DNA of 64,000 nt from Kangiellaceae bacterium (GTDB taxonomy: Bacteria; Pseudomonadota; Gammaproteobacteria; Enterobacterales; Kangiellaceae), in contig JAHRVB010000201.1 in NCBI GenBank assembly GCA_019090895.1, forward strand, positions 1 through 64,000, given 5' to 3'. This document shows, piece after piece, positions 2,353 to 19,320 of the stretch. Within the stretch, counting starts at the first letter, position 1; each line of letters starts with the position of its first letter. Made by a program: the position numbers and the translations under genes. The notes under the pieces were generated by a model. That model had not been told where the DNA came from. It saw only the letters and a list, made by a program, of their open reading frames with translations, and did no database searches.

Positions 2353-4386
2353 CTAGAATCGTTTTATACGGCTGCCTGTTTGAATAGGGATAATTCTTTT
2401 CTTTTGAGGGGCTTCAAACTCGAATAATACAGAGGTTGAATGTGTTACTTTTCGGCCTGCCAGTATGGCTGGCTCATAACGCCACAGCTTGAGTTTTCGT
2501 TTAATTTCGCGAGCAAATGATCGAACGGTCCCCTCGGCCACGCTGACATTCACCACCGCTCCGTCAGTTCCTATTTCAAAATCTACGTGTACTTTTTGAT
2601 TAACCATTTTTGACCAAGCTCTTCGTGGGTATTTTGGATAGGGTGTAAAGATAGCTTTAGGTTCTGCAAATTTCGTCGCAGATTTGAGATCTAACGAAGC
2701 AACCCTCATCTTAGCTCTATGCTCTTTGGGTACGAAATTTGGTATTGAATACAACTCACCGACTGGCTTCGAAGACATTTCTACGAATAATTCTTCTTCA
2801 ACCCTCGATTTGTTGAACAACCTGTCTTTAATAGCCGTTTTGGGTGCAATATCCGATTTGTTGTTTGTAACACTCAGCTCGGCAATGTTCCCCTGTTTTA
2901 TTGTATTATTTGTAACAAGATCAGAAGCTTTGCTTAATTGTTCACCCAACGCTTGTTTCTTAGATCCAGAACGATTAATAGCTGTCACTAACGGTGCTAC
3001 TTTCGTTGTGGTACTAGAGTCTCTTTCAACTGTAGAGCCAACTGGATGTATAGATCCAGCGTCACCGACAGTTTTAATCGCTTTGTCTGGTTCCAAATTA
3101 TTAGATTCACCTTCAGATTTGAAGGCTATTAACTCAAAAGAGTTGGTATCTTGTAAGCCAATATTTTGAGTAGATTCTTGTACAGAGGCCGAGTCTATCT
3201 TCAGGGTATTCTGAAATGGAGAGGTTACAAAACTAGTTTCTGGTATGGTGGTTTCTTTGTTAATCGTGTAGTTAACTGTCTGGTCTTGTACCACCAAATC
3301 AGTGTAAGAAGCGTTTTGACTGAAGTCTAAAGTCGTAGACAGAGCTGCAAAGCTAAAAGTAAAAACAAACAAGCCAAGTAGAACACTTCTTATCGAGGTG
3401 GCTGGTTTGTACTGACTGTCCAAAATATGTGATATTCGATGTTTAAGCATTCCACCTGATGCTGAGACCGCAACCAGTGAAAGATTACCTTCTCTTAACT
3501 CTTCAGTACCTAACAATGCTTTGGCGAGATTTATCTTAGCGCTTTCGTCGTTTCCAACAACCTCAACCGCTAGTTGATCACATATGTATTCACGCTCATC
3601 CCTTATGACCTTGTTGATCCAATAAACAGTAGGATGGAAGAAAAGACATATCTGTACAATATTTTGCAGTAAGTTGACTGCAAAATCGACGCGTTTGATG
3701 TGCGCCAACTCATGAGCAATGATCAACTCTAAGTGATTTCTTTCTAATCCAATAGTAATTGCTATTGGCAGAAGCACCACTGGTCTTAACCACCCAATTA
3801 CTACAGGAACATTCACCGTTTTTGATTTTAGGATTGTAACCGTTCTGCTAATGTTGTATTTTTTCGAAAGATTATTAACGATATCTTGAACTTCATCACT
3901 GACTTGAGCTACACCTTCTTTGGTTAATTTAAATGTTCGATTTAGGTCCATTACAAATTTCAAACTCATAAAGAAACAACCGAACATCCAAATAACTAAT
4001 ACGTAACTGAGAAACTCTCGATATTCATTTTCTGAGTTATTGAGATTCTTTAGATTGATTTGTCGAGAGTGAACTCCTACGTCTTGCCCTTCTAAATTAT
4101 TATTTCCATCAGACAAAATACTAGATTGGCCCGTTAAATCAGTGACTCGAACTTGGTTAAGGTTTGAACTGTCGACATAATTGAAAGTAATAATTGGTAA
4201 ACAGACAGCGATAACTAGCGCGAAAACGGCGATTCGATACCTTAACTGGAACAAGTTTTTGGGGATCACAGCAAGTACGCCCCACATAATCGCAGCGAGC
4301 AACGCACCTTGCCAAATAAAATGGATCAGTGTTAATGCTATATCTGAGATTAAATGATTCGATAAAAAGCCAAACAGAAGTTCCAT
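2353..4386 (-). CDS. BlaR1-like M56 peptidase fused to a TonB C-terminal domain
   Basis: A 677-residue membrane protein. Hydrophobic helices lie near residues 12-40, 50-68, 125-143 and 333-352. Between helices 3 and 4 sits the M56 zinc-protease motif HELAH (225-229), with the third-ligand region REYICD at 265-270. After helix 4 a long, probably disordered periplasmic region (355-575) leads to a TonB C-terminal-like domain (about 585-660: a YPxRAW start, then VHVDFEIGTDGAV and LKLWRYEPA). In BlaR1/MecR1 the protease domain inactivates the partner repressor when an outer sensor domain detects cell-wall stress. Here the sensor position holds a TonB-like fold instead of a penicillin-binding domain. 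It begins 3 bases after blaI. Confidence 0.9.
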   Translation of the reverse strand: MELLFGFLSNHLISDIALTLIHFIWQGALLAAIMWGVLAVIPKNLFQLRYRIAVFALVIAVCLPIITFNYVDSSNLNQVRVTDLTGQSSILSDGNNNLEGQDVGVHSRQINLKNLNNSENEYREFLSYVLVIWMFGCFFMSLKFVMDLNRTFKLTKEGVAQVSDEVQDIVNNLSKKYNISRTVTILKSKTVNVPVVIGWLRPVVLLPIAITIGLERNHLELIIAHELAHIKRVDFAVNLLQNIVQICLFFHPTVYWINKVIRDEREYICDQLAVEVVGNDESAKINLAKALLGTEELREGNLSLVAVSASGGMLKHRISHILDSQYKPATSIRSVLLGLFVFTFSFAALSTTLDFSQNASYTDLVVQDQTVNYTINKETTIPETSFVTSPFQNTLKIDSASVQESTQNIGLQDTNSFELIAFKSEGESNNLEPDKAIKTVGDAGSIHPVGSTVERDSSTTTKVAPLVTAINRSGSKKQALGEQLSKASDLVTNNTIKQGNIAELSVTNNKSDIAPKTAIKDRLFNKSRVEEELFVEMSSKPVGELYSIPNFVPKEHRAKMRVASLDLKSATKFAEPKAIFTPYPKYPRRAWSKMVNQKVHVDFEIGTDGAVVNVSVAEGTVRSFAREIKRKLKLWRYEPAILAGRKVTHSTSVLFEFEAPQKKRIIPIQTGSRIKRF

Positions 4387-16143: not shown

Positions 16144-17352
16144 CTATCCTTCCAGTAAGATGAACTCAAGTACTTTTTTCATATCTAAATTGAAATCCTC
16201 AGCCCGTACTCCTTTTTCAATATGTTTTTGCTCATCTAAGGCTAAGTCTATGTTCTTAGCCTTCAAGAAATGCTCTTGACTGGTACTGTAAAAGACCTTG
16301 ACCTTCGGTCTAATCGGGTCATCACTGTTTCTACTTTCAACAACAGCGAGATGCTCAGAGTCTAATTTCACTAACGAGCCAATCGGATACACTCCCATAC
16401 ATTTGATAAAACTACCGACTAGTTTTTGATCCAACAGGTCGTTCTTAGCCATGTCCATCAAGATTGCGAATGCTTTAACATGTGCCATACCGTTTTTATA
16501 AACTCGATTGGCTGTAAGGGCGTCAAAAATATCGCATATGGTAATCATGCGCGAATATTGAGGGATTTGATCACTGTTCAAATTGAACGGATAACCAGTG
16601 CCATCCAATTTTTCATGATGATGAGCCGCGACCTCTCTGCTTAATTTCGCAATCCCTTTCATTCCGTCGATGATCTTAACGCTATGATTTACATGCGTTT
16701 TTATGACTTCGAACTCTTCAGTGGTTAAGCGCCCTGGCTTATTAAGTATCTCGGGTGCAATCTTAATTTTCCCTACATCATGTAAAAAAGCCCCAATTGC
16801 CAGTTGTTTCGCAGTTTCAATATCAATTTTTAGATGTCGGCCAAAGATAGACATCAATATTGCAACAGAGGTAGAGTGCTCTAGTAAATACTCATCCTTT
16901 TCTCTAATATTGATAATACAGGCCAGCGCGTCTGGATTTTCAAAAACTGCTTCCGTGGTTTCAGACGTGATATCTTGAATGGGTTGTAGATCGATGTCTC
17001 TGCCAGCAATAATGTCGTCCAATACCTTACGCTGGATTGCTTTTGACTTCTCAAACGTTTCTTTCGCCTTGGCAATAGACTCAGCTAAACTCTGTTTGGG
17101 CTTACGTTTAGCGCTAGATTGATTCTTCGCTGTTTTTGTCGTCGGCATAACGACCGAAGAGTCTTCTTTTGATTCAAGAACTTTACCGGTATCAATTAAA
17201 ACCCTCTCCACACCCGCATCAATGAGCTCTTCTATATTGTGTAATGTCCTAACCCAGCCTTGTTTTTTAAGCTTATTGCCTCCCTTTTGTTTTACTATCC
17301 CAACAACATAACTTCCAACGCTTACTCTAGCGATGTCTTTTTCTACGATCAT
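16144..17352 (-). CDS. HD-GYP domain protein with N-terminal DUF3391
   Basis: A 402-residue protein. Residues 1-110 match DUF3391, the N-terminal region often found before HD-GYP domains, and 88-115 is a probable helix linking them. The HD-GYP domain contains HDVGK (191-195) and HHEKLDGTGYP (245-255), so the metal ligands and the GYP loop are intact. HD-GYP enzymes hydrolyse cyclic di-GMP to GMP or pGpG. No signal peptide or receiver domain is present, so it is a soluble enzyme with an unknown input. Two PilZ receptors for the same messenger are about 11 kb away. Confidence 0.92.
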   Translation of the reverse strand: MIVEKDIARVSVGSYVVGIVKQKGGNKLKKQGWVRTLHNIEELIDAGVERVLIDTGKVLESKEDSSVVMPTTKTAKNQSSAKRKPKQSLAESIAKAKETFEKSKAIQRKVLDDIIAGRDIDLQPIQDITSETTEAVFENPDALACIINIREKDEYLLEHSTSVAILMSIFGRHLKIDIETAKQLAIGAFLHDVGKIKIAPEILNKPGRLTTEEFEVIKTHVNHSVKIIDGMKGIAKLSREVAAHHHEKLDGTGYPFNLNSDQIPQYSRMITICDIFDALTANRVYKNGMAHVKAFAILMDMAKNDLLDQKLVGSFIKCMGVYPIGSLVKLDSEHLAVVESRNSDDPIRPKVKVFYSTSQEHFLKAKNIDLALDEQKHIEKGVRAEDFNLDMKKVLEFILLEG

Positions 17353-17505: not shown

Positions 17506-19320
17506 CTAAAGCTTCTGCAAATGCCTATTCGTTGCACTCATATCTGGTTCGAACTTATGGAGATCATAAACCTCAATCCAATCTCCGGCCATTTTTGTGC
17601 CAATGCTCTTTTTAAGCTGACTCTTGACCGGAGTAAATTGAAATAATGAAGTTTGCTGTTCTGCATAATGCTTAACTTTCTCAGACACATATATATGTCC
17701 TGAATCTGCCATCGATTCAAGTCGCGATGCCATGCTAACTGCGGTACCTTCTAGGTCTGATTGCTCAGTAACTTCATTGTGCACAATAGTAACTTCACCC
17801 AAATCAATACCGATCCGTAATTCAAATTCAGCGGCCATTAGTACATGTCGGATCATCCAAGCGCATTCTACAGCGGCTTTCGCGCTCTTAAATGTAGCTC
17901 TCAATGAATCACCTTCCATATTAGGGTAACTTGCATTCCACTTTGCTAGAATAGGTTTCAATAATCCTCTAAATAAAGAGAGTTTCTCAGAAATTATCGC
18001 GTCACTCCATTGAGTAAATCCCTTAAGATCAATGAACAATACGCTAAAGTTTCTTACCTGATCAATTTCATATTCTGTGGCTAACTCTAATAATCTCGGC
18101 CAAAATTTATCTTTGATTCCAGCGACAGCTTCATGCAATTCTTTTTGCATACTCTTGTCGGCTCTCATTGCCAGTTGAGCATTTTGAATTCGTCTTGCTT
18201 CTTCTTTTAGCGAATTTTCGAGTTCTTTAACTGAATAATGACCCACTTCATCGACAACTAGTCTAACCAGTGCCCCACCTGCAACGTCCTTTACTGATTT
18301 AAGACGTAACGACACTCCCCAATGATGAGCCTGGAGGTGTTCGATTAATATCGGCAAAGTCGCAATTTCATTGGCTGTTAATCTGAACTCATATTTTAAG
18401 TCTATCGTTAATGACTCAGCATACATTTTCTCAAATTCATGAGCTGCGTATATCGTCTTGTTAGTCGCACCTTGATCCCAATATGCATACTCACAACAAA
18501 TATCCGATATATCCCAACCGATTGAGTTGATATTAAATAGAGTCGTGTCGGTTATGTTCGCTTTAGCAAGGTTTGATTCGGATAAATTAGTTCCACTTAA
18601 ATTACAACCCGTTAAATTAGCTGAATATAGATTAGCACCGGCTAAATTGAGCGCCGAAAGATTAACCTCGGTCAAATTCGCATGTTTAAATTGGCACTTA
18701 TCTAAAATTGTTGCTGCGAGTAATGTAGAAGTCAAATTAGCATGATTAAATATCGCACGTCTCAAATCCGCACCTCTTAAATCTGCACGTTTTAGGCTCG
18801 CATGACTCAAATCTTTGCCTGCCAGATTTTGTTTCCTTAGGTCACAGCCATCAAGCACAATCCCCCTTAAATCAATAGATTGTAGGTCTATATGTGTAAG
18901 ATCGGTGTTAACTATGATTGTTTTTCTGAACAGAGCAGTGAGAAAGTTAACTTCGACTAGATTGCATTTACGAAACGCAGTATTTTCCAAAATAGACGCG
19001 ATGAGTTTAGCTTGATTAAAGTCACATGAAACAAATCCTGAGTCGGAAAGGTTGGTCGAAATCAAATTGGTTGCTACGAACTGACAATGATTAAAATGGC
19101 AATTGATAAAATTAACGTTTGATAAATCCAAGCCTGATAAATCAACGTTATGAAACTCCTCATCTTCAAAAACGATGTCTCTTTGTCGATTTGATTCTTT
19201 CCATTGAGGCCATATAGCAGGATCGAGTAGACTCAACGCATCGTTTAACGCTGTAGGTTCTATATATGTGGAAGATTCAGCTTGATCGTTGTTCAAGCTA
19301 TTCAAATTATTATAATTCAT
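17506..19320 (-). CDS. Pentapeptide-repeat protein fused to a class III nucleotide-cyclase-like domain
   Basis: A 604-residue cytoplasmic protein in three parts. From about residue 51 to 261 every fifth residue is Leu, Phe or Ile with no break in register, giving about 42 pentapeptide repeats, roughly ten coils of a four-sided beta-helix. Residues 270-395 are a region I do not recognise. Residues 424-580 resemble a class III cyclase: metal-binding D431 (FIDLKGFT) and D471 (MEGD), D522 at the purine-specifying position and R533 (ASRLE) are kept. The usual substrate Lys is N467 and the transition-state Asn is S529. It may have altered specificity or be a regulatory pseudoenzyme. No neighbour explains its role. 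Confidence 0.85.
   Translation of the reverse strand: MNYNNLNSLNNDQAESSTYIEPTALNDALSLLDPAIWPQWKESNRQRDIVFEDEEFHNVDLSGLDLSNVNFINCHFNHCQFVATNLISTNLSDSGFVSCDFNQAKLIASILENTAFRKCNLVEVNFLTALFRKTIIVNTDLTHIDLQSIDLRGIVLDGCDLRKQNLAGKDLSHASLKRADLRGADLRRAIFNHANLTSTLLAATILDKCQFKHANLTEVNLSALNLAGANLYSANLTGCNLSGTNLSESNLAKANITDTTLFNINSIGWDISDICCEYAYWDQGATNKTIYAAHEFEKMYAESLTIDLKYEFRLTANEIATLPILIEHLQAHHWGVSLRLKSVKDVAGGALVRLVVDEVGHYSVKELENSLKEEARRIQNAQLAMRADKSMQKELHEAVAGIKDKFWPRLLELATEYEIDQVRNFSVLFIDLKGFTQWSDAIISEKLSLFRGLLKPILAKWNASYPNMEGDSLRATFKSAKAAVECAWMIRHVLMAAEFELRIGIDLGEVTIVHNEVTEQSDLEGTAVSMASRLESMADSGHIYVSEKVKHYAEQQTSLFQFTPVKSQLKKSIGTKMAGDWIEVYDLHKFEPDMSATNRHLQKL

Follow-up and report, generated by a model that had tools for sequence, protein, structure and literature searches.

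A pentapeptide-repeat rod joined to a class III nucleotide cyclase domain in the Kangiellaceae

Introduction

Pentapeptide-repeat proteins, among them Qnr, MfpA and HetL, form a four-sided right-handed beta-helix of pentads and are stand-alone proteins. Their familiar roles are those of binding scaffolds and DNA mimics, and no pentapeptide rod is known to serve as the input of a nucleotide cyclase. In class III cyclases the active sites form between two subunits. The mammalian enzymes need a base-specifying Lys and a transition-state Asn, both of which are replaced in the protein described here. Several established cyclases lack the Asn, including Rv1900c, where His replaces it and which has been reported to use both ATP and GTP (PMC4886424). 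Ma1120 is an active adenylyl cyclase with Ala at the same site, and in guanylate cyclases the first base site is Glu and the second can be Cys, Ser, Thr, His, Ala or Gly (PMC4215837). Bacterial TRADD-N is an RRM-like adaptor that occurs together with repeats and effectors in the same proteins (PMC8195603).

We analyzed a gene in a 64,000-nucleotide stretch of DNA (the window) from a marine bacterium of the family Kangiellaceae. Its product joins a pentapeptide rod to a class III cyclase domain. The enzyme class is known but this architecture is unusual for it, and a literature search found no paper with pentapeptide repeats and a nucleotide cyclase in one protein. An earlier note on this DNA had described the anatomy, aligned the catalytic residues and inferred either changed nucleotide specificity or a signalling pseudoenzyme. 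The anatomy and the alignment stand; the inference is not supported.

Overall architecture

The gene (17506..19320, minus strand, as are all its features below) encodes 604 residues from an ATG start, in which a rod is followed by a ferredoxin-like middle domain, then by signalling helices and finally by a class III cyclase. Pfam recognises two families in the protein, Pentapeptide (PF00805) at E 1e-35 and Guanylate_cyc (PF00211) at 42.3 bits, where the cut-off is 21.9 bits. An AlphaFold2 model built from 29 orthologs has a mean pLDDT of 83.5, with the rod mostly above 90 and the cyclase mostly between 75 and 92; the full-length pTM is 0.50, and the mutual arrangement of the domains is not fixed by the model. 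Residues 1–50 (19171..19320) form a variable N-terminus, disordered up to residue 24 in the model and ending in a short capping helix (residues 37–43) in which W40 is conserved.

The rod (residues 51–265, 18526..19170) consists of 43 pentapeptide repeats in a single register. Leu, Phe or Ile occupies every fifth position from residue 51 to 261; the earlier note was right that the register never shifts, and its count of 42 becomes 43 pentads. The profile match and the coils of the model both fit a tandem array of A(D/N)LXX pentads in one constant register. About ten coils of beta-helix had been predicted; the 43 pentads correspond to approximately 10.75 coils, and the model shows a regular coil with one short helical kink at residues 146–148. 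The rod is 215 residues long in 36 of 39 orthologs. The interval between residue 51 and W269 measures 218 residues in these 36 and 208 in three orthologs from a neighbouring family (f13), which have two pentads fewer in the same register. Beyond W269 the spacing is invariant: the intervals W269–D431, D431–R533 and R533–585 have identical lengths in all 39. The conservation of 43 in-register pentads by nearly all orthologs is far beyond chance. With a net charge of -5 the rod is mildly negative, and it scores far short of the gyrase-protecting families, at 69.6 against an NCBIfam cut-off of 360 for MfpA and 61.2 against 240 for Qnr. It shares the four-sided helix of Qnr, MfpA and HetL, but is fused to a cyclase.

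Between rod and cyclase lies a 125-residue region that the earlier note could assign to no family, and Pfam likewise gives only single weak matches to unrelated families. Its core (residues 304–360, 18241..18411) is a beta-alpha-beta-beta plait of the ferredoxin/RRM-like kind, without a sequence family. When the domain was folded alone from 25 sequences, the core reached a pLDDT of about 90 and the order of elements was beta-alpha-beta-beta-alpha. Foldseek returned no match under E 0.05 for the isolated domain; the best match in VIA had a Z of 8.6 (MscS and HMG-CoA reductase domains), which places the similarity at the level of the common alpha-beta plait. A profile of the domain recovered only the window's own copy among 398 genomes across the phylum, and no relative on viral contigs. 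Among 395 genomes of the order, only the window family and the families f13 and f14 have the domain. The earlier note had proposed to look for region 270–395 in other proteins. One gammaproteobacterial protein (G520, locus L051; the same gene as L073:1213-3144) has a rod and the middle domain followed by an unrelated C-terminus instead of a cyclase, so the middle domain keeps company with the rod.

Residues 361–420 (18061..18240) lead into the cyclase. In the model, two helices (364–385 and 389–418) sit here between the plait and the cyclase domain, in the position taken by the transducer helix of other bacterial class III cyclases.

The cyclase domain

Residues 421–590 (17551..18060) form a class III nucleotide cyclase domain, as the earlier note had proposed, by profile, alignment, model and fold match. 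The closest structures are Ma1120 (5d0h; Z 22.7 over 158 residues, 1.9 Å) and Rv1900c (1ybu; Z 22.0); these structural matches span the cyclase domain only. Four catalytic residues are invariant in all 39 orthologs: the two metal-binding aspartates, D431 (18028..18030) and D471 (17908..17910), the base-specifying, adenine-type D522 (17755..17757) and the transition-state R533 (17722..17724). At the site of the base-specifying Lys stands N467 (17920..17922), also invariant in 39 of 39. The transition-state Asn is replaced by S529 (17734..17736) in the window protein and eight other orthologs, and is present as Asn in the remaining 30. All six residues lie at the positions first reported.

The substitution of the Lys and the Asn is genuine and no artefact of shifted positions, because the same columns hold in Rv1900c (1ybt) and in the 39 orthologs. 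In the phmmer alignment, Asn of Rv1900c lies opposite N467 and His opposite S529. Neither of the missing residues defines the class: both are usual members of the active site, yet Rv1900c has no Lys, and Rv1900c and Ma1120 have no Asn. The corresponding residues of Rv1900c, N342 and H402, are reportedly dispensable. Since these two precedents are active, N467 and S529 are both compatible with what functional adenylate cyclases carry at these sites.

Rv1900c (LipJ) is similar to the window protein in its class III fold, the N-x-x-G-D motif at the Lys site, the Asp and Arg, and a transition-state site other than Asn. It differs in having an N-terminal alpha/beta hydrolase where the window protein has the rod, and His where the family has Asn or Ser; the LipJ model scores 41.4 bits on the window protein, far below its cut-off of 800. 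Ma1120 (5d0h/4wp9), the best structural match, is likewise active without the Asn, but it keeps the Lys and has other regulatory parts.

The Asn at the adenine-reading Lys site raises the question whether the enzyme is a guanylate or dual cyclase. N467 is invariant across the family, and Rv1900c, which also has Asn here, reportedly uses GTP as well as ATP (PMC4886424). At both base sites, however, the window protein departs from the residues of guanylate cyclases given in the Introduction (PMC4215837), and its adenine-type D522 is invariant, which argues against a guanylate cyclase. The conserved regulator in the same genomes, CRP, also has a cAMP pocket. We therefore consider a change of nucleotide specificity unlikely.

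Distribution and inheritance

The C-terminal 324 residues were found in 36 of the 40 genomes of the window family, in all six genera and with one full ortholog each; four genomes of the family do not have the gene. Four further genomes, belonging to f13 and f14, carry this region, and hardly any beyond them. The gene tree follows the genera, and the gene thus looks vertically inherited. On plasmids, only ordinary class III cyclases were found, at most 33% identical among the matches listed.

The inheritance bears on a possible role in counter-invader signalling against phages, by analogy with proteins that fuse repeats, a TRADD-N adaptor and an effector. Such proteins contain pentapeptide-type repeats, the RRM-like TRADD-N and, in one known case, a nucleotide cyclase (PMC8195603). 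They resemble the window protein in combining repeats, an RRM-like adaptor and an output domain; the middle domain has a topology of this general kind, and L051 joins the rod and middle domain to a different C-terminus. TRADD-N folds as beta-alpha-beta-beta-alpha-beta and the middle domain shows beta-alpha-beta-beta-alpha, a common fold. Pfam gives no TRADD-N match, and TRADD-N does not appear in the lists of fold matches for the middle domain, an absence that does not argue against membership. Where TRADD-N has a tiny residue and a Ser between strands 2 and 3, most orthologs have G-x-A/S/T in the turn, but the glycine-serine motif is not clearly present. Domain order and lineages differ as well. 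Unlike defence genes, the window gene is present in single copy and inherited with the genera, its output domain is never exchanged in 39 orthologs and its length is nearly constant. A defence function is very improbable on these grounds.

Neighbouring genes

By coordinates, 30 of 36 cyclase-bearing genomes have, directly downstream of the cyclase gene and on the same strand, a gene for a PD40 (TolB-like) propeller (for example L057:6876-7763 and L061:6633-7583). A hydrophobic N-terminal stretch suggests that the propeller is exported. Neither the window genus nor G003 has this gene next to the cyclase, and one genome (G006, L149:3817-4680) has the propeller gene with neither the cyclase gene nor CyaA. 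These exceptions rule out an obligate partnership; the propeller is a frequent companion of the cyclase. In the window, the gene directly downstream (16144-17352) encodes an HD-GYP (DUF3391) protein, likely a cyclic-di-GMP phosphodiesterase; in the sister genus g2 the propeller gene intervenes between the two.

Evolution of position 529

All nine Ser529 forms belong to the window genus (g1) and g2. Position 529 requires two changes on the gene tree, and the simplest histories are a change from Asn to Ser at the base of g1 and g2 with one reversal in G001 (L011), which lies inside the clade and has Asn, or two parallel gains. S529 is a recent change within g1 and g2, and one Ser lineage has probably reverted. 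The branch leading to the clade is long (1.27 changes per column) and could reflect a change of function. Every genome in which Ser529 was seen also encodes CyaA. This would fit a relaxed need for the enzyme, but the genomes form a single clade.

We asked whether the cyclase domain of the window clade may be non-catalytic and instead act, on its scaffold, as an output that dimerises or binds nucleotide. The loss of the transition-state Asn in nine orthologs of two genera, all with CyaA, and the long branch are both consistent with such a pseudoenzyme. Yet no member of the Ser clade has lost either metal Asp or the Arg, one lineage inside it has Asn, and enzymes with Ala or His at this site are active (PMC4215837, PMC4886424). 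The cyclase also has the lowest or nearly lowest nonsynonymous distance of all domains in most ortholog pairs, including those compared within the Ser clade: there, leaving aside one near-identical pair, the values are 0.08–0.12 for the cyclase versus 0.18–0.45 for the rod. Because most synonymous distances are saturated, dN/dS was taken from close pairs only; its value in the cyclase domain is 0.006 for L008/L009, a close pair with Ser. The cyclase domain is under purifying selection, and loss of catalysis in this clade appears unlikely. The precedents in active Rv1900c and Ma1120, the Asn529 of 30 out of 39 orthologs and the CRP kept in genus g5, described below, all speak against the earlier choice between altered specificity and a pseudoenzyme.

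cAMP supply and CRP

Class I CyaA (PF01295) is encoded in 17 of the 40 family genomes and in none of the 20 genomes of one genus, g5, which is probably Kangiella (genomes of 2.3–2.9 Mb). In 19 of these 20 exactly one protein matches PF00211, the rod cyclase; the twentieth genome is 55% complete. In g5 the open frame of the CYTH protein spans approximately 400–520 residues, and the one scanned combines CYTH with CHAD, which is the inorganic triphosphatase type and not a short class IV cyclase. The rod cyclase is thus the only candidate adenylate cyclase found in g5 among classes I, III and IV. The window genome differs in having five PF00211 proteins, namely the rod cyclase and four other class III proteins, and its genus also has CyaA.

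The 19 g5 genomes encode a CRP that is 62–64% identical to E. coli CRP and keeps G72, E73, R83, S/T84, R124, T128 and S129, all of the residues that contact cAMP. CRP is also present in the window genome (61%) and in two close relatives, at 61–64% across these three. The use of the E. coli reference sequence rests on the alignment. As the sole candidate found in g5, the rod cyclase therefore probably drives this genus's main cAMP-dependent gene switch. The region upstream of the gene contains no CRP-type site with at least 9 of 10 matches, either in the window or at 19 other loci, and thus no feedback link was found.

Elsewhere in the family's genomes, a class III cyclase frame of about 1480 residues (L151:4807-9252) lies beside a Crp-family gene of about 230 residues (3149-3844). 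By coordinates, the same two genes recur side by side in several genomes of g3 and g6.

Discussion

The rod protein is probably an active class III adenylate cyclase controlled by its rod and by a transducer domain of ferredoxin-like fold. We picture a cytosolic, homodimeric enzyme in which the long pentapeptide rod, of fixed length, would serve as the input end. The rod would bind some partner, and binding would rearrange the pair of ferredoxin-like middle domains together with the helices that follow them. The changed dimer geometry would then open or close the composite active sites that the two cyclase domains form at their interface. ATP would be the substrate, and the product, cAMP, would act through CRP, which is present throughout the family where it was looked for. 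The replacement of Asn by Ser at position 529 would be tolerated and may lower or tune turnover.

The place of the enzyme in cAMP supply would vary between genera. In the window genus it would be one input among several, next to CyaA and four other class III proteins; in g5 it would be the sole source of cAMP. We suggest, tentatively, that the fixed-length beta-helix of 43 pentads is a cyclase sensor working through a transducer domain not described before, and that in one whole genus it may be the only switch feeding cAMP to CRP.

If this model is right, g5 uses a rod-controlled class III cyclase where its relatives use CyaA, and CRP-dependent control in that genus would be set by whatever ligand the rod binds. 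With one cyclase gene per genome, g5 offers a simple system for a knockout. The part most worth following is that a rod-controlled enzyme is apparently the only source of cAMP in one genus.
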